Shown one piece after another: positions 11,624 through 17,593 of a DNA stretch of 64,000 bases. A model generated the notes under the pieces. It ran no database searches and was not told the DNA's origin. It was given only the letters and a program-made list of their open reading frames with translations. Position 1 is the stretch's first letter. Every line of letters starts with the position of its first letter. The DNA is from an uncultured Pseudomonadales bacterium. Its GTDB lineage: Bacteria > Pseudomonadota > Gammaproteobacteria > Pseudomonadales > Azotimanducaceae. The translations under genes were made by a program, and so were the position numbers. The stretch is taken from assembly GCA_958296025.1 (NCBI GenBank), contig OY282430.1:1674001-1738000 (forward strand), in the 5' to 3' direction.

Positions 11624-12043
11624 TTAGGGCACCACGCCCCGCTGCAACACGAAGTCGCTGCCAGGCGAAACAGCGGCCATGAGCTGGCTGAGCTTCTCCA
11701 ATGTTGGTGACGACTCTCCGCGCTCGTAGCGTGCGTAGGCGTTGAGGGACTTCGCACCGAGGCGTTGCGCCGCTTCGGCGAGCGAGAGGCCGCTGCGGGC
11801 GCGTTGGCGGCGCAGCATCAACGCGACCATGCACCGTGCGTCGTCCGAGCCAAGCTCAATGTCGCCGCTTCCGCACGAATGCACTGTCACCGAGAAACCT
11901 GGGCAATTGGCCAAAGCCTCCACCATGTCCTTGACCATGACCAAGGCTTCCGCCTCGGTACGTCCTTGGGTCATGGCGTCCAGCATGGGAACTTCAGCCA
12001 ACCAGAACCTGCCGTCCTTGAATATTCTGCCCTGCACTCTCAT
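11624..12043 (-). CDS. hicB: HicB-type antitoxin with C-terminal XRE helix-turn-helix
   Basis: 139 residues. The N-terminal half (MRVQGRIFKDGRFWLAEVPM then DAMTQGRTEAEALVMVKDMV) is the partially degraded RNase H-like HicB fold that caps HicA. The C-terminal half (LRRQRARSGLSLAEAAQRLG and LNAYARYERGESSPTLEKLS) is an XRE helix-turn-helix for autoregulation. Its ATG overlaps the stop of a hicA remnant as ATGA (12040-12043), the normal hicA-hicB layout. The antitoxin is intact; the toxin is not. Confidence 0.85.
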   Translation of the reverse strand: MRVQGRIFKDGRFWLAEVPMLDAMTQGRTEAEALVMVKDMVEALANCPGFSVTVHSCGSGDIELGSDDARCMVALMLRRQRARSGLSLAEAAQRLGAKSLNAYARYERGESSPTLEKLSQLMAAVSPGSDFVLQRGVVP

Positions 12044-12183: not shown

Positions 12184-12576
12184 TCAAGGCGTGATGATCT
12201 CGCAAGTCGGGCCTTCGGCACGACTAAGTTTTTGATCAAGCGTTGCCAAACGGCAACCGAGCGCTTCTGCAACGGCGACATACCAAGCGTCATAACTCGT
12301 CAGATTATGCCGCAGTGCCCAAATGCGGGCTGCGAAAGGCGAGAACGGGAAAAGATCGATGCCGAGCGTTAGCAGATCCCGAGAGGCGGACATGGCTTCA
12401 AATGCGGATACTTGCCCAATTCGCTCCAATCGGCGCAGAATATTGGTTGCTTCAACGAGCACTAGCTCCGGACCAGCCAATGCTCCCTCTGCGAGCACAT
12501 CGTCCGCCCATTGTCCTGACGGCCCCGCATCTACAGCTGCGGCAACCAGCGCCGAAGCATCGACAACAACGGTCAC
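12184..12576 (-). CDS. vapC: VapC-type PIN-domain ribonuclease toxin
   Basis: 130 residues from GTG 12576, overlapping the antitoxin stop as GTGA. All PIN acids are visible: D6 (VVVDASA), E42 (LVEATN), D96 (SYDAWYV) and D114 (ATLDQKL). Length and fold are normal for VapC, a Mg-dependent endonuclease that cleaves specific tRNA or rRNA sites. The gene is intact and its antitoxin is also intact, so this is a probably functional TA module. Confidence 0.92.
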   Translation of the reverse strand: MTVVVDASALVAAAVDAGPSGQWADDVLAEGALAGPELVLVEATNILRRLERIGQVSAFEAMSASRDLLTLGIDLFPFSPFAARIWALRHNLTSYDAWYVAVAEALGCRLATLDQKLSRAEGPTCEIITP

Positions 12577-12809
12577 GTCCGGTCCGCGTCACGCACTTCC
12601 AGGATGAGCGAGGGCGGAACGCAAGTGCCAGCGGCTTCCTTGCGCCGACGAACGCGCCGCAACCACGCGTCGGTGGAGTTTTGCCCAGCGATTCGTTCCA
12701 ACTCGATGCGAAGGAAGTCCTCTATGGATTGGCGTTCATAGGCAGCACGCGCTGCAAGAGCGTCGAGGACCTCTTCCGGGACATCGTTAATGGTGATCTT
12801 CACTGACAT
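12573..12809 (-). CDS. vapB: VapB/FitA-type ribbon-helix-helix antitoxin
   Basis: 78 residues from ATG 12809 (an ATG at 12818 is also possible). The start MSVKITINDVPEEVLDALAA followed by RAAYERQSIEDFLRIELERI is the ribbon-helix-helix DNA-binding fold of FitA-like antitoxins. The C-terminal tail with RRRKEAAGTCVPPSLILEV should wrap the VapC active site. Translation is coupled to vapC by the GTGA overlap. Confidence 0.88.
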   Translation of the reverse strand: MSVKITINDVPEEVLDALAARAAYERQSIEDFLRIELERIAGQNSTDAWLRRVRRRKEAAGTCVPPSLILEVRDADRT

Positions 12810-12849
12810 GCCGCGCATCTTGCCATTAGGGGGGCAATCGCGCAACATC

Positions 12850-13437
12850 CTGTCGGGTCCGAATTTCAATCGCTGGCGCAACACGCAGGAGTGGGGCGAA
12901 CACCCGGTAACTTTGGCGCATTGTCTAGGTGGACGCTGGCGCAGGACCTTCTTCCAGCCCTTCGCGGAGGTGGGCATCGTCGAACTGGAGGCCCTGTTCG
13001 ACCGGGTGGACGCGCTTTGGGCCCTGTATGCGGAGCAACTGGCCCGGGACCGCTTGGAGACGGAGGACACCTTGCCCGTGCGGGGCCAGCCCGCCGCCTA
13101 GCGGCAAGCCGCCATCCGCCGCGAAACGCGCTTCCCGGCATGCGTTTTGCGTACGCGTTGGCGCTTCGGCGAAGCCGTTCGTCCATGCGCAGAACTGGTT
13201 GCGGGGCTTCTACGAAGCCTACGCTGAGGCCCACGACCTCCACTATCGGCCTTCTTTGACGAACCAGCCGGCGGTCGTCCTGTATGAACGGGCGAACCAT
13301 CCCGGTCTGTTTCCGACCCGTCCCGTCTTCCATCGTGCCTTGGCGGACCTGGCGCTGCACAAGGCGCTGGTGACGGTTGGCGAAGAGGTCGGCTACGGCC
13401 TCGTCAAGCGCCTGAGCTTCGACAAGCAGACCGTTGC
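12850..13437 (+). other. Degenerate, formerly coding stretch of unknown identity
   Basis: The plus strand shows coding-like composition in more than one frame. One frame ends at 13101 with FFQPFAEVGIVELEALFDRV and DALWALYAEQLARDRLE. Another carries NWLRGFYEAYAEAHDLHYRP and ALVTVGEEVGYGLVKRLSFD up to about 13430. No start codon with a ribosome site fits, and the frames do not join, so I read it as the frameshifted tail of one or two lost genes. I cannot name the family. It sits between the VapBC pair and the interrupted XRE gene. Confidence 0.4.
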
Positions 13438-13439
13438 AG

Positions 13440-13711
13440 TCACCCCGACCGAGGGGGAAGGAGAATGTCGTTCCGAATCCGCACCCCAAGAGCGTGGGAT
13501 ACTTGGCACAGGCGTTGATAGCTCGCGGAAGCGTAGCGCTCAGCCTCGTATCGCTGAATCTGCTGCTCCTTGACGCCCATCCGCTGAGCCAGCGCCCGCT
13601 GGCTGAGGCCCGCAGCGATTCGAGCCTTAATCAAGCCGTCGGCCAACTCGTCAAAGGAAGCTGTCGAGATTACGGACAGATCAGCCGCCTTCAAGCGGTC
13701 GTACTCGGCAA
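13440..13711 (-). pseudogene. XRE antitoxin gene, 3' part (interrupted by the insertion element)
   Basis: This is the C-terminal two thirds of an XRE-family antitoxin: DELADGLIKARIAAGLSQRA, LAQRMGVKEQQIQRYEAERY and RLCQVSHALGVRIRNDILLP. Its 5' part lies at 15844-16024. Removing the element and one copy of the 9-base duplication joins ...LRAELAE to YDRLKAADL... in frame, giving a 146-residue protein typical of its family. An in-frame ATG at 13724, inside the element's inverted repeat, could still give a 94-residue HTH protein. Confidence 0.88.
13703..13711. repeat. 9-bp target-site duplication, left copy
   Basis: ACTCGGCAA, identical to 15844-15852, directly outside the left inverted repeat of the element. 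Confidence 0.93.
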
Positions 13712-13729
13712 CAGCAGTTCTCATTTTGG
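13712..13729 (+). repeat. Left 18-bp terminal inverted repeat
   Basis: CAGCAGTTCTCATTTTGG, perfect match to the complement of 15826-15843. Confidence 0.93.
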
Positions 13730-13798
13730 GTGTTGTTCGCGGCTCCGGTCGAGTTTGTGGTGTTCGGTTGATGTCGGGTTGGGAGTGGGACGCGGAGT

Positions 13799-15087
13799 TC
13801 AGGGCGGCTGGGCGGCGGTACCGCCGGTAGCGAGCAGTGACAGGAGGTTGTTCCAGTCGGGGAACAGCCGGTATTCGGTGACGGTTCGCAGGTGTTCGAA
13901 CAATCGGCGCCGGGTGCCGAGGCGCCGGCGGGCGCTCTGCCAGAGCGTCTCGGCGAGTTCGCAGGCGCTGTGGAGCGAGAAGGCGAGCAGGTTGAGGACG
14001 ACCAGCACGCCGGCGAGGGTGTCGTTGCCGTGGCCGAAGTTGTGTTTGAGGTGGTAACCGTGCTGCTTGAGGACGTTGAAGGTCTCGTTCTCGATCTTCC
14101 ATCGGGCGCGGGCGCAGTCGGCGAGTTCGGCGACGTTGTCGCGGTCGACGTCGAGGCTGGTGACGAAGGTGCCGCGGTGGGTGACGGTGCCGTCGGGTCG
14201 CGCGCTGGTGATCTCGAGCCAGTTGACGCGCAGGGCGTCGTCGCCGTCGCGGATGGGCAGGTCGGTCATCCACCGGTAGCGGTGGATGCGCCGGCGGGCG
14301 CCGGCGCCGGCGGTGGCGCGGCGGGTGGGCGGGCGGATGCCGTCGAGGTGCTCGCAGAGGGTCTTGTGGCTGGCCGGCTTGGCGGTGAGCAGGAAGCGCC
14401 GCCGCTGTCGAGCATCGCCCGGCAGACGGGCTGGCAGGCGTACAGGTCGTCGCCCAGGTAGACGGGGCGCAGTGGCGCGCAGCGGGTTCCGTGGCGTTGC
14501 AGCCAGCGCTTGGCCGCCTCGCGTTCGCAGTCCTGCTTGGCGGCGCCGTCGCGGGGCGCCACGAACTCCGGGGGCAGCGGCAGCGTGCGGGCGTGGCCGG
14601 GCGCCACCAGGGTGGCGGCCAGCATCTGGTGGAAGTGCTCCGTGGCGCCGTCGCTGCGCTTGCGGGTCGCGCAGTGCGGGCAGTGGATGCTGCGCGAGCG
14701 GAAGAACTCCGTGCCGTCCAGGGCGACGAGCAGCCGGCCGTCCAGGCGGCGCATGGATGCCAGGGCGCCGTGCGCGTCGAGGTCCGCGGCGATGGCGTGG
14801 AACTCGTCGTCGAAGTGCGCCGTCGGCACGCCGTCGAGCAGTTGCCGGATGTGGTTGTCGCAGGGGATGCGGGCCAGGCCGAACAGCGTGTGCGCGTTGG
14901 ACCGCGTGCGTCCCTCGGCCAGCGCGCGCTGATGCGCCAGGAACGACGGCGACTGCATGAAGAACACCGACAGCGCCGCCATGGCGACGTCCGCCATGGC
15001 GTACCGGCGGTTGCGGCCGCGACGCGGGTCCGGCAGCCCGGCGAAGCACGCCCGGAGCCGTTCCAGATGGCCGCCGAGGAGCTTCAC
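13799..15087 (-). pseudogene. Transposase of the insertion element (single frameshift)
   Basis: Translation would start at GTG 15087 (VKLLGGHLERLRACFAGLPD), overlapping the methylase stop. The first part (15087 to about 14400) holds PDPRRGRNRRYAMADVAMAA and LVALDGTEFFRSRSIHCPHC, whose D is the likely first catalytic acid; the YLGDDLYACQPVC region holds the second. At about 14400 the frame shifts: RFLLTAKPASHKTLCEHL and later CARARWKIENETFNVLKQHG, with the E of the DDE set, continue in another frame to the stop at 13799. One missing base after AMLDSGG would explain it. Either the copy is dead or the shift is bypassed by ribosomal slippage; no obvious slippery heptamer is seen. Confidence 0.85.
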
Positions 15088-15776
15088 GGCGGCGCCTGCG
15101 CTTCCACTGCCATGACCGCGGCCAGCACCGCCAGGCGCTCCGCCGGAGGCATCGCCCGGTAGCGCCGGCCCCAGCTCGCCGCCTTGCGCTTGACCGTCTG
15201 CCGGTGCGTGAAGTCCCGCCCCGCGCACGACGCCCAGTGCACCCGGTCCGGTTCGAAGTTGAACCACACCTTCTCGGTGACCACGCCCGCCTGGTTCATC
15301 ACCTGCAGCGCCACGCTGCGCCAACCGCAAAGCAGCTCGTCGTAGAGCGCCGACGGGTACCCCGACACCATCACCGCGCACGGCAGCCCCTTGAGCAGTT
15401 CCAGCAGCGCCGCGTGGTCCGCGTCCCCGTAGTCGTGCCGGTAACGGCGCCCGGACTTGCGCGCCGCGCGCAGGTACGGCGGGTCGCTGTAGACCAGCTC
15501 CGAACCGTCGAACGCGAAATCGGCCAGATACCCGTGGCAGTCCGCGTTGACCAGTTCCACCGCATGGCCGCACTCGAATGACGACAGCGCCCGCGCGTCC
15601 AGGTCGATCCCGATGTTGCGCAGCGCCGCCGGCTTGCGCTTCATCACCGCGCCCCCGCCCAAGTGCGTCTCAATGTACACCGCGTGCGGCGGCATCAGCG
15701 CGACCAGCGCCTGCCACAGCCCCGACGACGCCTTCGATCCGAACCACGGGTTGCCCATGGCCCGCACCATAGGCAC
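15084..15776 (-). CDS. D12-class N6-adenine DNA methylase carried by the insertion element
   Basis: 230 residues if read from GTG 15776; ATGs at 15770 and 15758 are also in frame. Counting from 15776, the SAM-binding motif ETHLGGGAV is at 36-44 and the catalytic DPPY at 98-101, in the alpha (Dam/D12) order. The short protein and lack of a restriction partner suggest a solitary methylase, as in many phages. It lies wholly within the inverted repeats and overlaps the transposase start by GTGA, so the two are translationally coupled. A promoter (TTGACA-17-TATGGT) places the transcription start near ATG 15758, which may make MGNPWFGSK the true, leaderless start. Confidence 0.88.
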   Translation of the reverse strand: MPMVRAMGNPWFGSKASSGLWQALVALMPPHAVYIETHLGGGAVMKRKPAALRNIGIDLDARALSSFECGHAVELVNADCHGYLADFAFDGSELVYSDPPYLRAARKSGRRYRHDYGDADHAALLELLKGLPCAVMVSGYPSALYDELLCGWRSVALQVMNQAGVVTEKVWFNFEPDRVHWASCAGRDFTHRQTVKRKAASWGRRYRAMPPAERLAVLAAVMAVEAQAPP

Positions 15777-15794
15777 AACGTCCTATGCTGTCAA
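15766..15794 (-). promoter_or_regulatory. Promoter for methylase-transposase operon, overlapping annotated start codons
   Basis: On the reverse strand TTGACA (15794-15789) and TATGGT (15771-15766) are 17 bases apart. A start of transcription about 7 bases on falls at or next to ATG 15758, suggesting leaderless translation from that codon rather than from 15776 or 15770. Confidence 0.6.
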
Positions 15795-15825
15795 GCCTCC
15801 CTCAATCCGGCGCTATGTAAAAATG

Positions 15826-15843
15826 CCAAAATGAGAACTGCTG
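15826..15843 (-). repeat. Right 18-bp terminal inverted repeat
   Basis: CCAAAATGAGAACTGCTG, the exact complement of the left repeat. Confidence 0.93.
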
Positions 15844-15852
15844 ACTCGGCAA
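15844..15852. repeat. 9-bp target-site duplication, right copy
   Basis: ACTCGGCAA, identical to 13703-13711, directly outside the right inverted repeat. Confidence 0.93.
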
Positions 15853-16657: not shown

Positions 16658-17593
16658 TTAGATCAACGTAGCCTGCGCCGATGTTGGCACTACGTTTTGG
16701 TCTTCATTGTGCAGCCTTTCATTCGCCGCTGCATGGAAGCCCTCCACCGCCTCAAATCCGACAAAATGTCGATTGAGGCGCCTCGCTGCAACCGCCGTGG
16801 TACCGCTGCCCATGAACGGATCGAGAACCGTCTGCCCCTCCTGCGTCGTCAGACTTATCAGGAACGAAACCAATCCTATGGGCTTCTGGGCTTCATGGAT
16901 TCTGTGTTCCTCCTTCATGAACCCGAACTCTAGAACATTTGTAGCGCCAACCCCATGAACCTGGCAGGCTTCGACATTCATGGCGCCGACACCATGTTCC
17001 AAAACATTGTCCGAAATGGTGCCGCCTATGCAATAGGGCTTCATGAACCAGGCAATGGGTTCGAACATGGGGGCCAAGTTTCCCAACCGCCAACCACTCC
17101 ACTTCGCTGCGGCCTCATCCAGACCCCGCCTTTCAAAGACAACGCTTACCCGCTGTGCCCGGTGGTGGGCCGATCTCTTCTTCCAAGCGAGCATGTCCTT
17201 CAAGAGAAACCCGCTGTCTTCAAAGGCGTTTACCACCCGATGCACGGTTCGGCGAGCCGCGAATACGAACACCGAGCTCCCGTTCTTCAGCTTGGGGAAC
17301 GCCATCTGCGCCCATGATCGGCACCACTCTTGGTATTCGACGCCGATGTTGCGATCAGATCGGGACCATCCGTTGATCGGCTTGCCTCGGCGCTTGAAGG
17401 CTGGCTTGCCTAGCTGGGCGGGAGATTTCCCCAGCAAGGCGGAGTTCTGATTGCTATGCAACACGTCCCAGTCGTCCATGCTGATGCCATAGGGTATGTC
17501 GGACAGCAGCAGCTCAATGCTATCGTCTTCAAGGCGCGGAAGGTGCTCTCGACAGTCAGCCAAAGTTATCTTGTCTAGGTAGAAATCGTTCAT
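16658..17593 (-). CDS. Site-specific DNA methyltransferase (beta-class, type II-like)
   Basis: 311 residues from ATG 17593. Motif IV appears as SDIPYG (31-36) in place of the usual DPPY, and motif I as DPFMGSGTT (258-266); catalytic motif first and SAM site last is the beta-class order of N6-adenine or N4-cytosine methylases. Its start overlaps the stop of a broken upstream gene (ATGA at 17590-17593), probably the cognate restriction subunit. The methylase is intact and so may persist as an orphan that still marks DNA. Recognition site unknown. Confidence 0.9.
   Translation of the reverse strand: MNDFYLDKITLADCREHLPRLEDDSIELLLSDIPYGISMDDWDVLHSNQNSALLGKSPAQLGKPAFKRRGKPINGWSRSDRNIGVEYQEWCRSWAQMAFPKLKNGSSVFVFAARRTVHRVVNAFEDSGFLLKDMLAWKKRSAHHRAQRVSVVFERRGLDEAAAKWSGWRLGNLAPMFEPIAWFMKPYCIGGTISDNVLEHGVGAMNVEACQVHGVGATNVLEFGFMKEEHRIHEAQKPIGLVSFLISLTTQEGQTVLDPFMGSGTTAVAARRLNRHFVGFEAVEGFHAAANERLHNEDQNVVPTSAQATLI

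Follow-up and report, generated by a model that had tools for sequence, protein, structure and literature searches.

A Dam-like methylase gene with a palindrome across its predicted promoter precedes the transposase gene of an insertion sequence and recurs before other transposases

The insertion sequence and its copies

Analysis of a 64,000-nucleotide stretch of contig OY282430.1 from an uncultured Pseudomonadales bacterium (the window; position 1 is its first letter) located an insertion sequence (IS) at 13712-15843 that carries a small DNA methylase gene followed by a transposase gene. The element and its surroundings comprise the following features (− denotes the minus strand).

13440..13711, −: 3′ part of an interrupted helix-turn-helix (HTH; HTH_3) gene
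13703..13711: target-site duplication, left copy, ACTCGGCAA
13712..13729, +: terminal inverted repeat, transposase end, 18 bp
13799..15087, −: DDE transposase gene; GTG start overlaps the methylase stop; frame broken near 14,396
15084..15758, −: small Dam-like, presumably adenine-N6, DNA methylase with DPPY motif, 224 aa from the ATG at 15758
15766..15771, −: predicted −10 hexamer TATGGT, 17-bp spacer, ending 7 nt before the methylase ATG
15768..15787: operator-like palindrome CATAG-N10-CTATG
15789..15794, −: −35 hexamer TTGACA of the predicted methylase promoter
15826..15843, −: terminal inverted repeat, methylase end, 18 bp
15844..15852: target-site duplication, right copy, ACTCGGCAA
15844..16024, −: 5′ part of the interrupted HTH gene

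Both 18-bp ends are perfect inverted repeats (CAGCAGTTCTCATTTTGG) and contain no GATC sites. In-silico excision with one 9-bp repeat gave a continuous open reading frame (ORF) of 147 aa with an HTH_3 domain in its 3′ part. The methylase stop and the transposase GTG share the bases GTGA (15084-15087), and no well-placed ribosome-binding site could be seen by eye before the GTG; on these two grounds we infer that translation of the two genes is coupled. A first-pass annotation of this DNA had reported the repeats, the duplication, the restored gene and the four-base overlap, and all were confirmed. It had also called the element structurally complete, which is true of its ends, whereas its coding capacity is impaired: the window copy is 2132 bp long versus 2133 bp in six other copies, one base being deleted near 14,396, and the transposase, a single ORF of 429 aa in those six, is divided between two frames. 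A programmed frameshift site was considered and rejected because the six other copies keep one open transposase frame. A real mutation and an assembly error are not distinguishable here; as it stands, the window copy has a broken transposase of its own and does not qualify as an autonomous, intact element.

The transposase was placed among DDE/RNase H-fold proteins. It scores 26.3 bits with Pfam DDE_Tnp_1_assoc and 19.9 bits with DDE_Tnp_1, both below the curated cut-offs, and the latter model is passed by a relative, L069, at 24.7. Its structural model is of low confidence (predicted local distance difference test, pLDDT, 62), and the best Protein Data Bank (PDB) match, Tn5 transposase, is indicative only. 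No NCBIfam IS model scored it above cut-off; a plasmid relative with 37% identity is annotated 'ISNCY family transposase'. A phmmer search of the PDB returned nothing useful for either protein.

The methylase presumably acts on adenine-N6. Its catalytic motif, D96-P-P-Y99, is invariant in 39 sequences, and the top PDB matches of its model are E. coli Dam (template modelling score ~0.54). PF02086 (D12/Dam) gives 17.2 bits, below the gathering threshold of 22, and TIGR00571 gives 25.3 against a cut-off of 114.85, residues 88-156 aligning to model positions 173-245. Dam-type enzymes hold a specificity domain between motif I and DPPY; no such domain was recognized here, only ~55 residues separating the G-rich motif from DPPY. 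A C-terminal helix is predicted at 187-206 (P0002 numbering), starting with F187 and T188 (pLDDT of the block 81-92). The methylase was also considered as a defence gene, for which PADLOC produced partial type II methyltransferase matches, the best at 69 bits, and a single weak hit to a different model; this assignment was rejected.

A search of the 3.9-Mb single-contig genome that contains the window found seven full-length copies of the element. All have the same 18-bp ends, each with its own perfect 9-bp duplication of different sequence, so the marks of an IS (terminal inverted repeats, duplications of fixed length, presence at several sites) are seen in all seven. Only five of 2133 columns vary among them. 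Such agreement lies well outside what chance would produce. The first-pass annotation had proposed a search for copies with the same ends; every copy found retains the methylase. Neither a methylase gene nor a transposase of this type was found in this genome outside the seven copies. Some 2 kb from copy L003 there is a 51-bp stretch with 80% similarity to the methylase gene (L008, G000:C1:2552171-2552221); no methylase protein match was detectable there.

Matches to the transposase were obtained in nine of 58 genomes searched, this genome included. Three of the eight other genomes of the genus (G006, G007 and G004) carry transposases with ~57-90% identity by segment, the methylase being adjacent in all three; degraded element copies are what G007 and G004 retain. 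In G001 there is a fragment of a close transposase, at which the presence of a methylase cannot be judged, together with distant transposases; G003 and G008 have distant ones only, and no transposase of this type was found in G002 or G005. The 18-bp ends recur with 0-2 mismatches in L068, L069 and L088 and at one end in L071, and L069 is flanked by the 9-bp duplication CTATGTAGG. At 16 loci, several from the same genomes, transposases with 26-39% identity were found without a methylase; six of these have CAGC[AG]ATTCCC-type ends, a 9-bp duplication and a length of 1.5-1.7 kb. One branch of an existing IS family therefore appears to have gained and kept the methylase. Copies lacking it, which the first-pass annotation would have taken as a sign of chance capture, are absent among the seven copies and the judgeable close relatives, and the 16 distant loci do lack it. 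The ratio of nonsynonymous to synonymous substitution rates, compared for four members of the methylase-bearing branch, ranges from 0.17-0.36 in the methylase to 0.28-0.43 in the transposase; judged by these values, both genes are under purifying selection in that branch.

Recurrence of the methylase before other transposases

A scan of genome contigs with five methylases detected 143 relatives, and the analysis continued with the best 80. Together with seven loci from other searches these provided 71 loci with at least 55% identity, including one duplicate (L039 = L097) and several sets of copies that share a genome (among them four in G303 and three in a Bryobacterales genome). Phylum labels of the carriers are taken from the titles of metagenome-assembled genomes (MAGs), in which binning errors are possible. 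A transposase ORF or a piece of one was found within ~300 nt downstream of the methylase in 51 of the 71 loci. Clustering assigned 47 of them: 33 + 4 are IS66-like, six of the window type and four IS701-like. The other four are L098 (ISKra4), L131 (IS4), L093 (a DUF6444 match) and L116 (recognized by eye). Thirty-eight of the 47 clustered ORFs begin no more than 30 nt from the methylase stop, 17 of the 47 with the exact four-base overlap. Another 13 loci are cut off by a contig end within 335 bp, and in the remaining seven, which have room downstream, no adjacent transposase was found. Of these seven, L078 has an IS66 remnant ~0.5 kb further on and L102 a DDE_Tnp_1 ORF ~2 kb further on.

PF03050 matched 31 of the 37 IS66-like ORFs; the six without a match are four short pieces (L076, L089, L117, L124), L075, which matches IstB, and one untraced. 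The L098 transposase scores 345 bits for ISKra4 (cut-off 205) and that of L131 236 bits for IS4 (cut-off 160). The G303 transposase scores 146 bits for IS701, not reaching the cut-off of 170, and 48 for Pfam DDE_5 (cut-off 27). Beyond the window type, ends and duplications were established for L112-L114, L098, L085 and seven copies in G303. Duplications of 8 bp, read by eye, flank the three complete IS66 copies L112-L114 (one Bryobacterales genome); L085 has 8 bp and the ISKra4 copy L098 7 bp. Four of the seven IS701-like copies in G303 have duplications of 6-7 bp, one has a shorter, offset one and two have none.

Two of these elements have unusual reading frames. The downstream ORF of L075 (3944-5047) starts like an IS66 transposase, as in L072, and ends like IstB (188 bits), a pattern that would fit interruption by, or fusion with, an IS21-type gene. 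A divergent open frame of 127 aa is also present in the IS701-like element of G303 (L150: 4006-6683, sisters L149 and L151-L155; read in one copy).

In a phylogenetic tree all IS-borne methylases form one clade (100/99). Within it, the window-type methylases group together (100/96) inside the IS66-borne ones, and the ISKra4 methylase pairs with one from an IS66 element (99/95); the IS4 case, a single locus with a broken methylase, was excluded. This nesting indicates that the methylase cassette changed vehicles. The methylase was the only gene found to be common to the carriers, whose transposases differ; it is thus not peculiar to the window element and recurs with several transposase families. 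That the whole cassette, promoter-operator and methylase, recurs before several of these families we regard as very likely. Methylase and transposase distances correlate among 21 IS66 carriers (r 0.44; as high in eight of 5000 permutations), a comparison that takes in transposases down to 14% identity.

These data bear on whether the methylase is chance cargo hitch-hiking on a successful IS. The window-type relatives at 26-39% identity manage without a methylase, as such cargo would allow. Against it stand the purifying selection on the methylase, its retention in the judgeable close relatives, its recurrence with several transposase families and the correlated IS66 distances, and we consider chance cargo highly improbable. 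The first-pass annotation had favored regulation over chance cargo; the seven copies that all keep the methylase, the selection on it and its recurrence support and extend that view.

The promoter palindrome and its candidate reader

The palindrome CATAG-N10-CTATG fills the spacer between the −35 and −10 hexamers of the predicted methylase promoter and overlaps the −10. In the window type 7 nt separate the end of the −10 from the ATG, so the methylase mRNA is probably leaderless or nearly so there; in the larger IS66 group the distance from −10 to ATG is 22-37 nt. TTGACA, a 17-bp spacer and the −10 are in place in 62 of the 71 IS-clade loci, which gave 55 unique sequences with the consensus TTGACA-n-CATAG-N10-CTATG-nT. 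In the left half-site T is conserved in 48, A in 49 and G in 53 of the 55, and the ten inner bases are variable. The right arm overlaps the −10; conservation of the left arm is not required by any promoter consensus. The symmetry axis scores 0.53 versus 0.36 for the next axis. Pair 9/26 of the operator covaries, being complementary in 41 of 55 sequences versus 27.7 expected. For all five arm pairs together 215 of 275 cells are complementary, compared with a mean of 204.6 after shuffling; 7 of 2000 shuffles attained that total. Fourteen of the 55 palindromes are exact and 41 have at least four of five pairs.

The 3.9-Mb host genome contains seven CATAG-N10-CTATG sites versus 1.5 expected from the base composition of the window, one per IS copy and none elsewhere; a backwards-read control gave no sites. 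A search of 369 class genomes for the full promoter-operator matched this genome only, and the backwards control matched once, in G295. Variant operators are present in G290 and G303.

The first-pass annotation had suggested that methylation might mark the element's ends. The palindrome at 15768-15787, which it missed, is a likelier regulatory site than the terminal repeats. Marking of the ends by the methylase, timing transposase binding, would resemble the action of host Dam on IS10 (PMC5371812; this and the other papers cited here are drawn on in part), and the window-type copies of this genome do have a third CATAG, starting 8 bp in from the terminal repeat at element position 27. This CATAG is missing in the relatives L068, L069 and L088, and the ends differ (IS66 GTAACTGCTCA, IS701-like CTCAAGAGTCCCGA, window CAGCAGTTCTCAT) while the operator is common to all. 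A shared terminal motif as the methylase target is not supported, as comparison of the ends by eye gave no common sequence and the third CATAG is not kept in these three relatives; marking of ends is improbable.

Of all alignment columns of the IS-borne methylases, residue 187 gives the best separation of the operator classes. H or R at 187 is found in nine of ten deduplicated loci with C at operator position 26 versus none of 40 with another base (exact test 4e-9, uncorrected for kinship). L098 and L101, nested in the H187 group, have T at position 26 and F187. Among distant loci, CATAG half-sites are accompanied by T188 in nine of nine rows, CATCG by R188 in all five distinct methylases and CACAG/CAAAG by Y187-I188 in both instances. 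The segment between motif I and DPPY is mostly absent and the C-terminal helical part present; given this and the covariation of residues with bases, we infer that the C-terminal helix is the DNA reader, for repression, methylation or both. On the same comparisons it is fairly likely that the methylase reads the operator.

Homologues of the methylase are also found on plasmids: 178 records matched, 130 of them typed as conjugative, and the best 40 have 42-52% identity. We inspected 300 nt upstream of the methylase in 24 plasmid-type or viral loci, some of which are almost the same in sequence. Sixteen have an exact 5-N10-5 palindrome of the CANNG kind there, so that a palindrome conserved with its putative regulator, and overlapping the promoter in the IS, extends to these loci. 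An initial view that plasmid methylases lack the operator was wrong, since many have a site elsewhere or with other half-sites. Exact CATAG palindromes cluster round the methylase on the Lichenicola, Sphingomonas DS-9 and Sphingobium pSF2 plasmids; pSF2 has four sites in the methylase half and none in the other. On the Methylomonas (L207) and Synechocystis (L210) plasmids, all such sites lie at a distance from the methylase. The Acidovorax IncP plasmid pAOVO02 (L208) has seven CATCG-N10-CGATG sites (14905, 14951, 16751, 16791, 20338, 20385 and 20434). A reading of sites there as lying upstream of a DUF1738 gene was wrong, three being beyond its 3′ end. Of 21 viral stretches with the promoter-operator, all five with more than one palindrome carry methylase sequence (two come from one contig and two hold the methylase start only); for the 16 with one palindrome, no methylase was found within the stretch fetched.

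Other repeated palindromes and gene neighborhoods were seen on these plasmids. GTATA-N10-TATAC occurs five times on Shewanella plasmid pSBP3 (L209: 834, 11642, 12817, 13065, 14836) and also upstream of the L214 methylase. On Synechocystis (L210), Pseudomonas (L213) and Citrobacter (L215) plasmids the methylase is near genes for 7-cyano-7-deazaguanine synthase and a PfkB-type kinase, and on two of the three it adjoins a gene annotated 8-oxoguanine DNA glycosylase; a conserved island is possible.

The plasmid data favor two other explanations to some extent. The methylase could protect the element or incoming DNA from restriction, as orphan plasmid methylases may, the operator being an ancestral promoter kept by descent. 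Its closest non-IS relatives are indeed plasmid methylases, many of them conjugative, and an antirestriction gene is annotated on pSF2. However, an IS does not move between cells as free DNA, the spacer arms are conserved and one pair covaries though the promoter does not need them, and helix residues track half-site bases, so we find restriction protection unlikely. Alternatively, a third protein, a host or plasmid repressor, might read the palindrome, with the methylase a passive member of its regulon. Palindromes away from the methylase start on plasmids such as pSF2 and pAOVO02, and the HTH gene beside the pSF2 sites, would suit such a reader. Against this, the carriers lie in genomes or MAGs labelled as several phyla with the methylase as the sole common gene found, the host genome has no site outside the IS copies, and the covariation at 187/188 would be left unexplained; this explanation appears a little less likely still than restriction protection.

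A number of observations weigh against the methylase as reader of a conserved operator. Six of the 71 loci fail the promoter filter and three have no room upstream. The outermost pair, 8/27, does not covary (25 of 55 versus 27.9 expected), the left half-site is lost in L112-L114 and L128, and the left arm is poor in L078, L090, L095, L102 and L104. L123 has C at position 26 with F187, and L130 has CATAG with A187. H187 represents one or two origins with an apparent reversal in L098/L101, at modest supports, and the CATCG loci with R188 form one clade (100/100) and therefore count as one event. The helices of L136 and L207 (F187-I188) and L143 (Y187-I188) have no matched site. A helix that sets methylation specificity would give the same covariation. 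The palindrome was picked after inspection: the CANNG kind makes up 25 of 34 upstream N10 palindromes, and the spacer of 10 is the commonest (34 palindromes), other spacers reaching up to 28. The L217 site has a mismatch, and no site was found up to 300 nt upstream in seven of the 24 plasmid-type or viral loci (L134, L136, L143, L146, L148, L204, L207). An HTH regulator gene adjoins the sites on pSF2. On pAOVO02 five of the seven sites are at or beyond 3′ ends of annotated genes rather than at promoters and two precede the methylase, so that a wider regulon on this plasmid is only a guess.

Possible control of transposition and relation to known systems

Taken together, we favor, with a probability of roughly 0.6, a self-limiting operon in which the methylase binds its own promoter, possibly methylating it as well, and thereby holds down expression of both methylase and transposase. 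That transposition is controlled through this methylase-operator system has, in our estimate, slightly better than even odds. A compact, self-regulating Dam-like methylase would be encoded by the first cistron and the transposase by the second. The C-terminal helix would read the CATAG half-sites, and binding or methylation would block RNA polymerase. In a naive genome the operon would be expressed as a burst; as methylase builds up, or as more copies produce it, methylase and transposase would be shut down jointly, the transposase by way of its four-base overlap with the methylase. The IS would thus possess its own timer of establishment and then silence, for which IS10/Tn10 relies on host Dam. 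The window copy, having no intact transposase, would be expected to go on producing methylase and might be mobilized in trans.

More tentatively, and at somewhat less than even odds, widespread miniature adenine methylases may double as sequence-specific repressors with an evolvable code at residues 187-188, having arisen on conjugative plasmids and plasmid-like or viral contigs, been captured together with promoter and operator by IS66-like elements and been passed on to window-type, IS701-like, ISKra4 and IS4-type elements. Such a cassette would be a portable, host-independent burst-then-silence timer, and members of the family on plasmids and viral contigs may control genes beyond their own. 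The residue-base covariation would then let targets of the plasmid homologues (178 records) be read from sequence. If the methylase is also the repressor, DNA methylation, transcription and transposition would be joined in one 0.7-kb gene. The work addresses the long-standing question of how insertion sequences avoid overrunning their hosts; with the cassette placed before different transposases, self-limitation of transposition is directly testable with a single promoter fusion.

Reviews of IS mention methyltransferase passenger genes. The restriction-modification genes of CfrBI are reportedly controlled by methylation of a promoter site; that system would share methylase feedback on expression through a promoter site, but here there is no restriction enzyme and the downstream gene is a transposase. 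Plasmid orphan adenine methylases, including the IncP type beside Upf31.0, are homologues, many with a nearby 5-N10-5 palindrome; they differ in having no transposase directly downstream in those inspected and half-sites of CATAG, CATCG, CACAG or CAAAG.

In IS10/Tn10, adenine methylation by host Dam gates transposase expression and activity (PMC5371812). Such gating is known there and proposed here; the methylase is host-encoded there, whereas here it is encoded by the element with its own operator, and the 18-bp ends lack GATC. Tn3 transposons carry toxin-antitoxin passengers whose genetic context, it is argued, fits a part in regulating transposition, and the pairs are called in a title an integral part of the transposition module (PMC7157771). 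Both cases concern passenger modules of transposons; ours differs in being a methylase, in short IS of several families, placed upstream of and overlapping or close to the transposase. Eukaryotic retrotransposons have recurrently captured cytosine methyltransferases, DIRS elements have Dam-like methylases, and purifying selection is reported for one group of captured enzymes (PMC5890265). Those too are independent gains of methyltransferases by mobile elements; the enzymes, hosts and mechanism are different, and an operator is not mentioned in the part of that paper drawn on.

As far as these sources reach, IS passenger genes, Tn3 toxin-antitoxin pairs, methyltransferases of eukaryotic elements and Dam control of IS10 are thus already known. 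The text consulted of PMC6305408 includes no lone methylase among IS passenger genes, and in 2013 the authors of PMC3627910 stated, in the portion used, that they were aware of no prior report of methyltransferases in transposons. We found no description of a methylase cassette with its own covarying operator common to several IS families in the open-licence literature, ISfinder and subscription papers being outside this scope.

Several neighboring genes surround the insertion. Just past the interrupted HTH gene, at 16658-17593 (−), is a second, unrelated DNA methylase gene (N6_N4_Mtase, 122 bits). On the other side, a toxin-antitoxin-like pair at 12184-13070 (−) consists of a FitA-like ribbon-helix-helix antitoxin gene and a PIN-domain gene, and an HTH_3 protein with a weak MqsA-antitoxin match is encoded at 11624-12043 (−).

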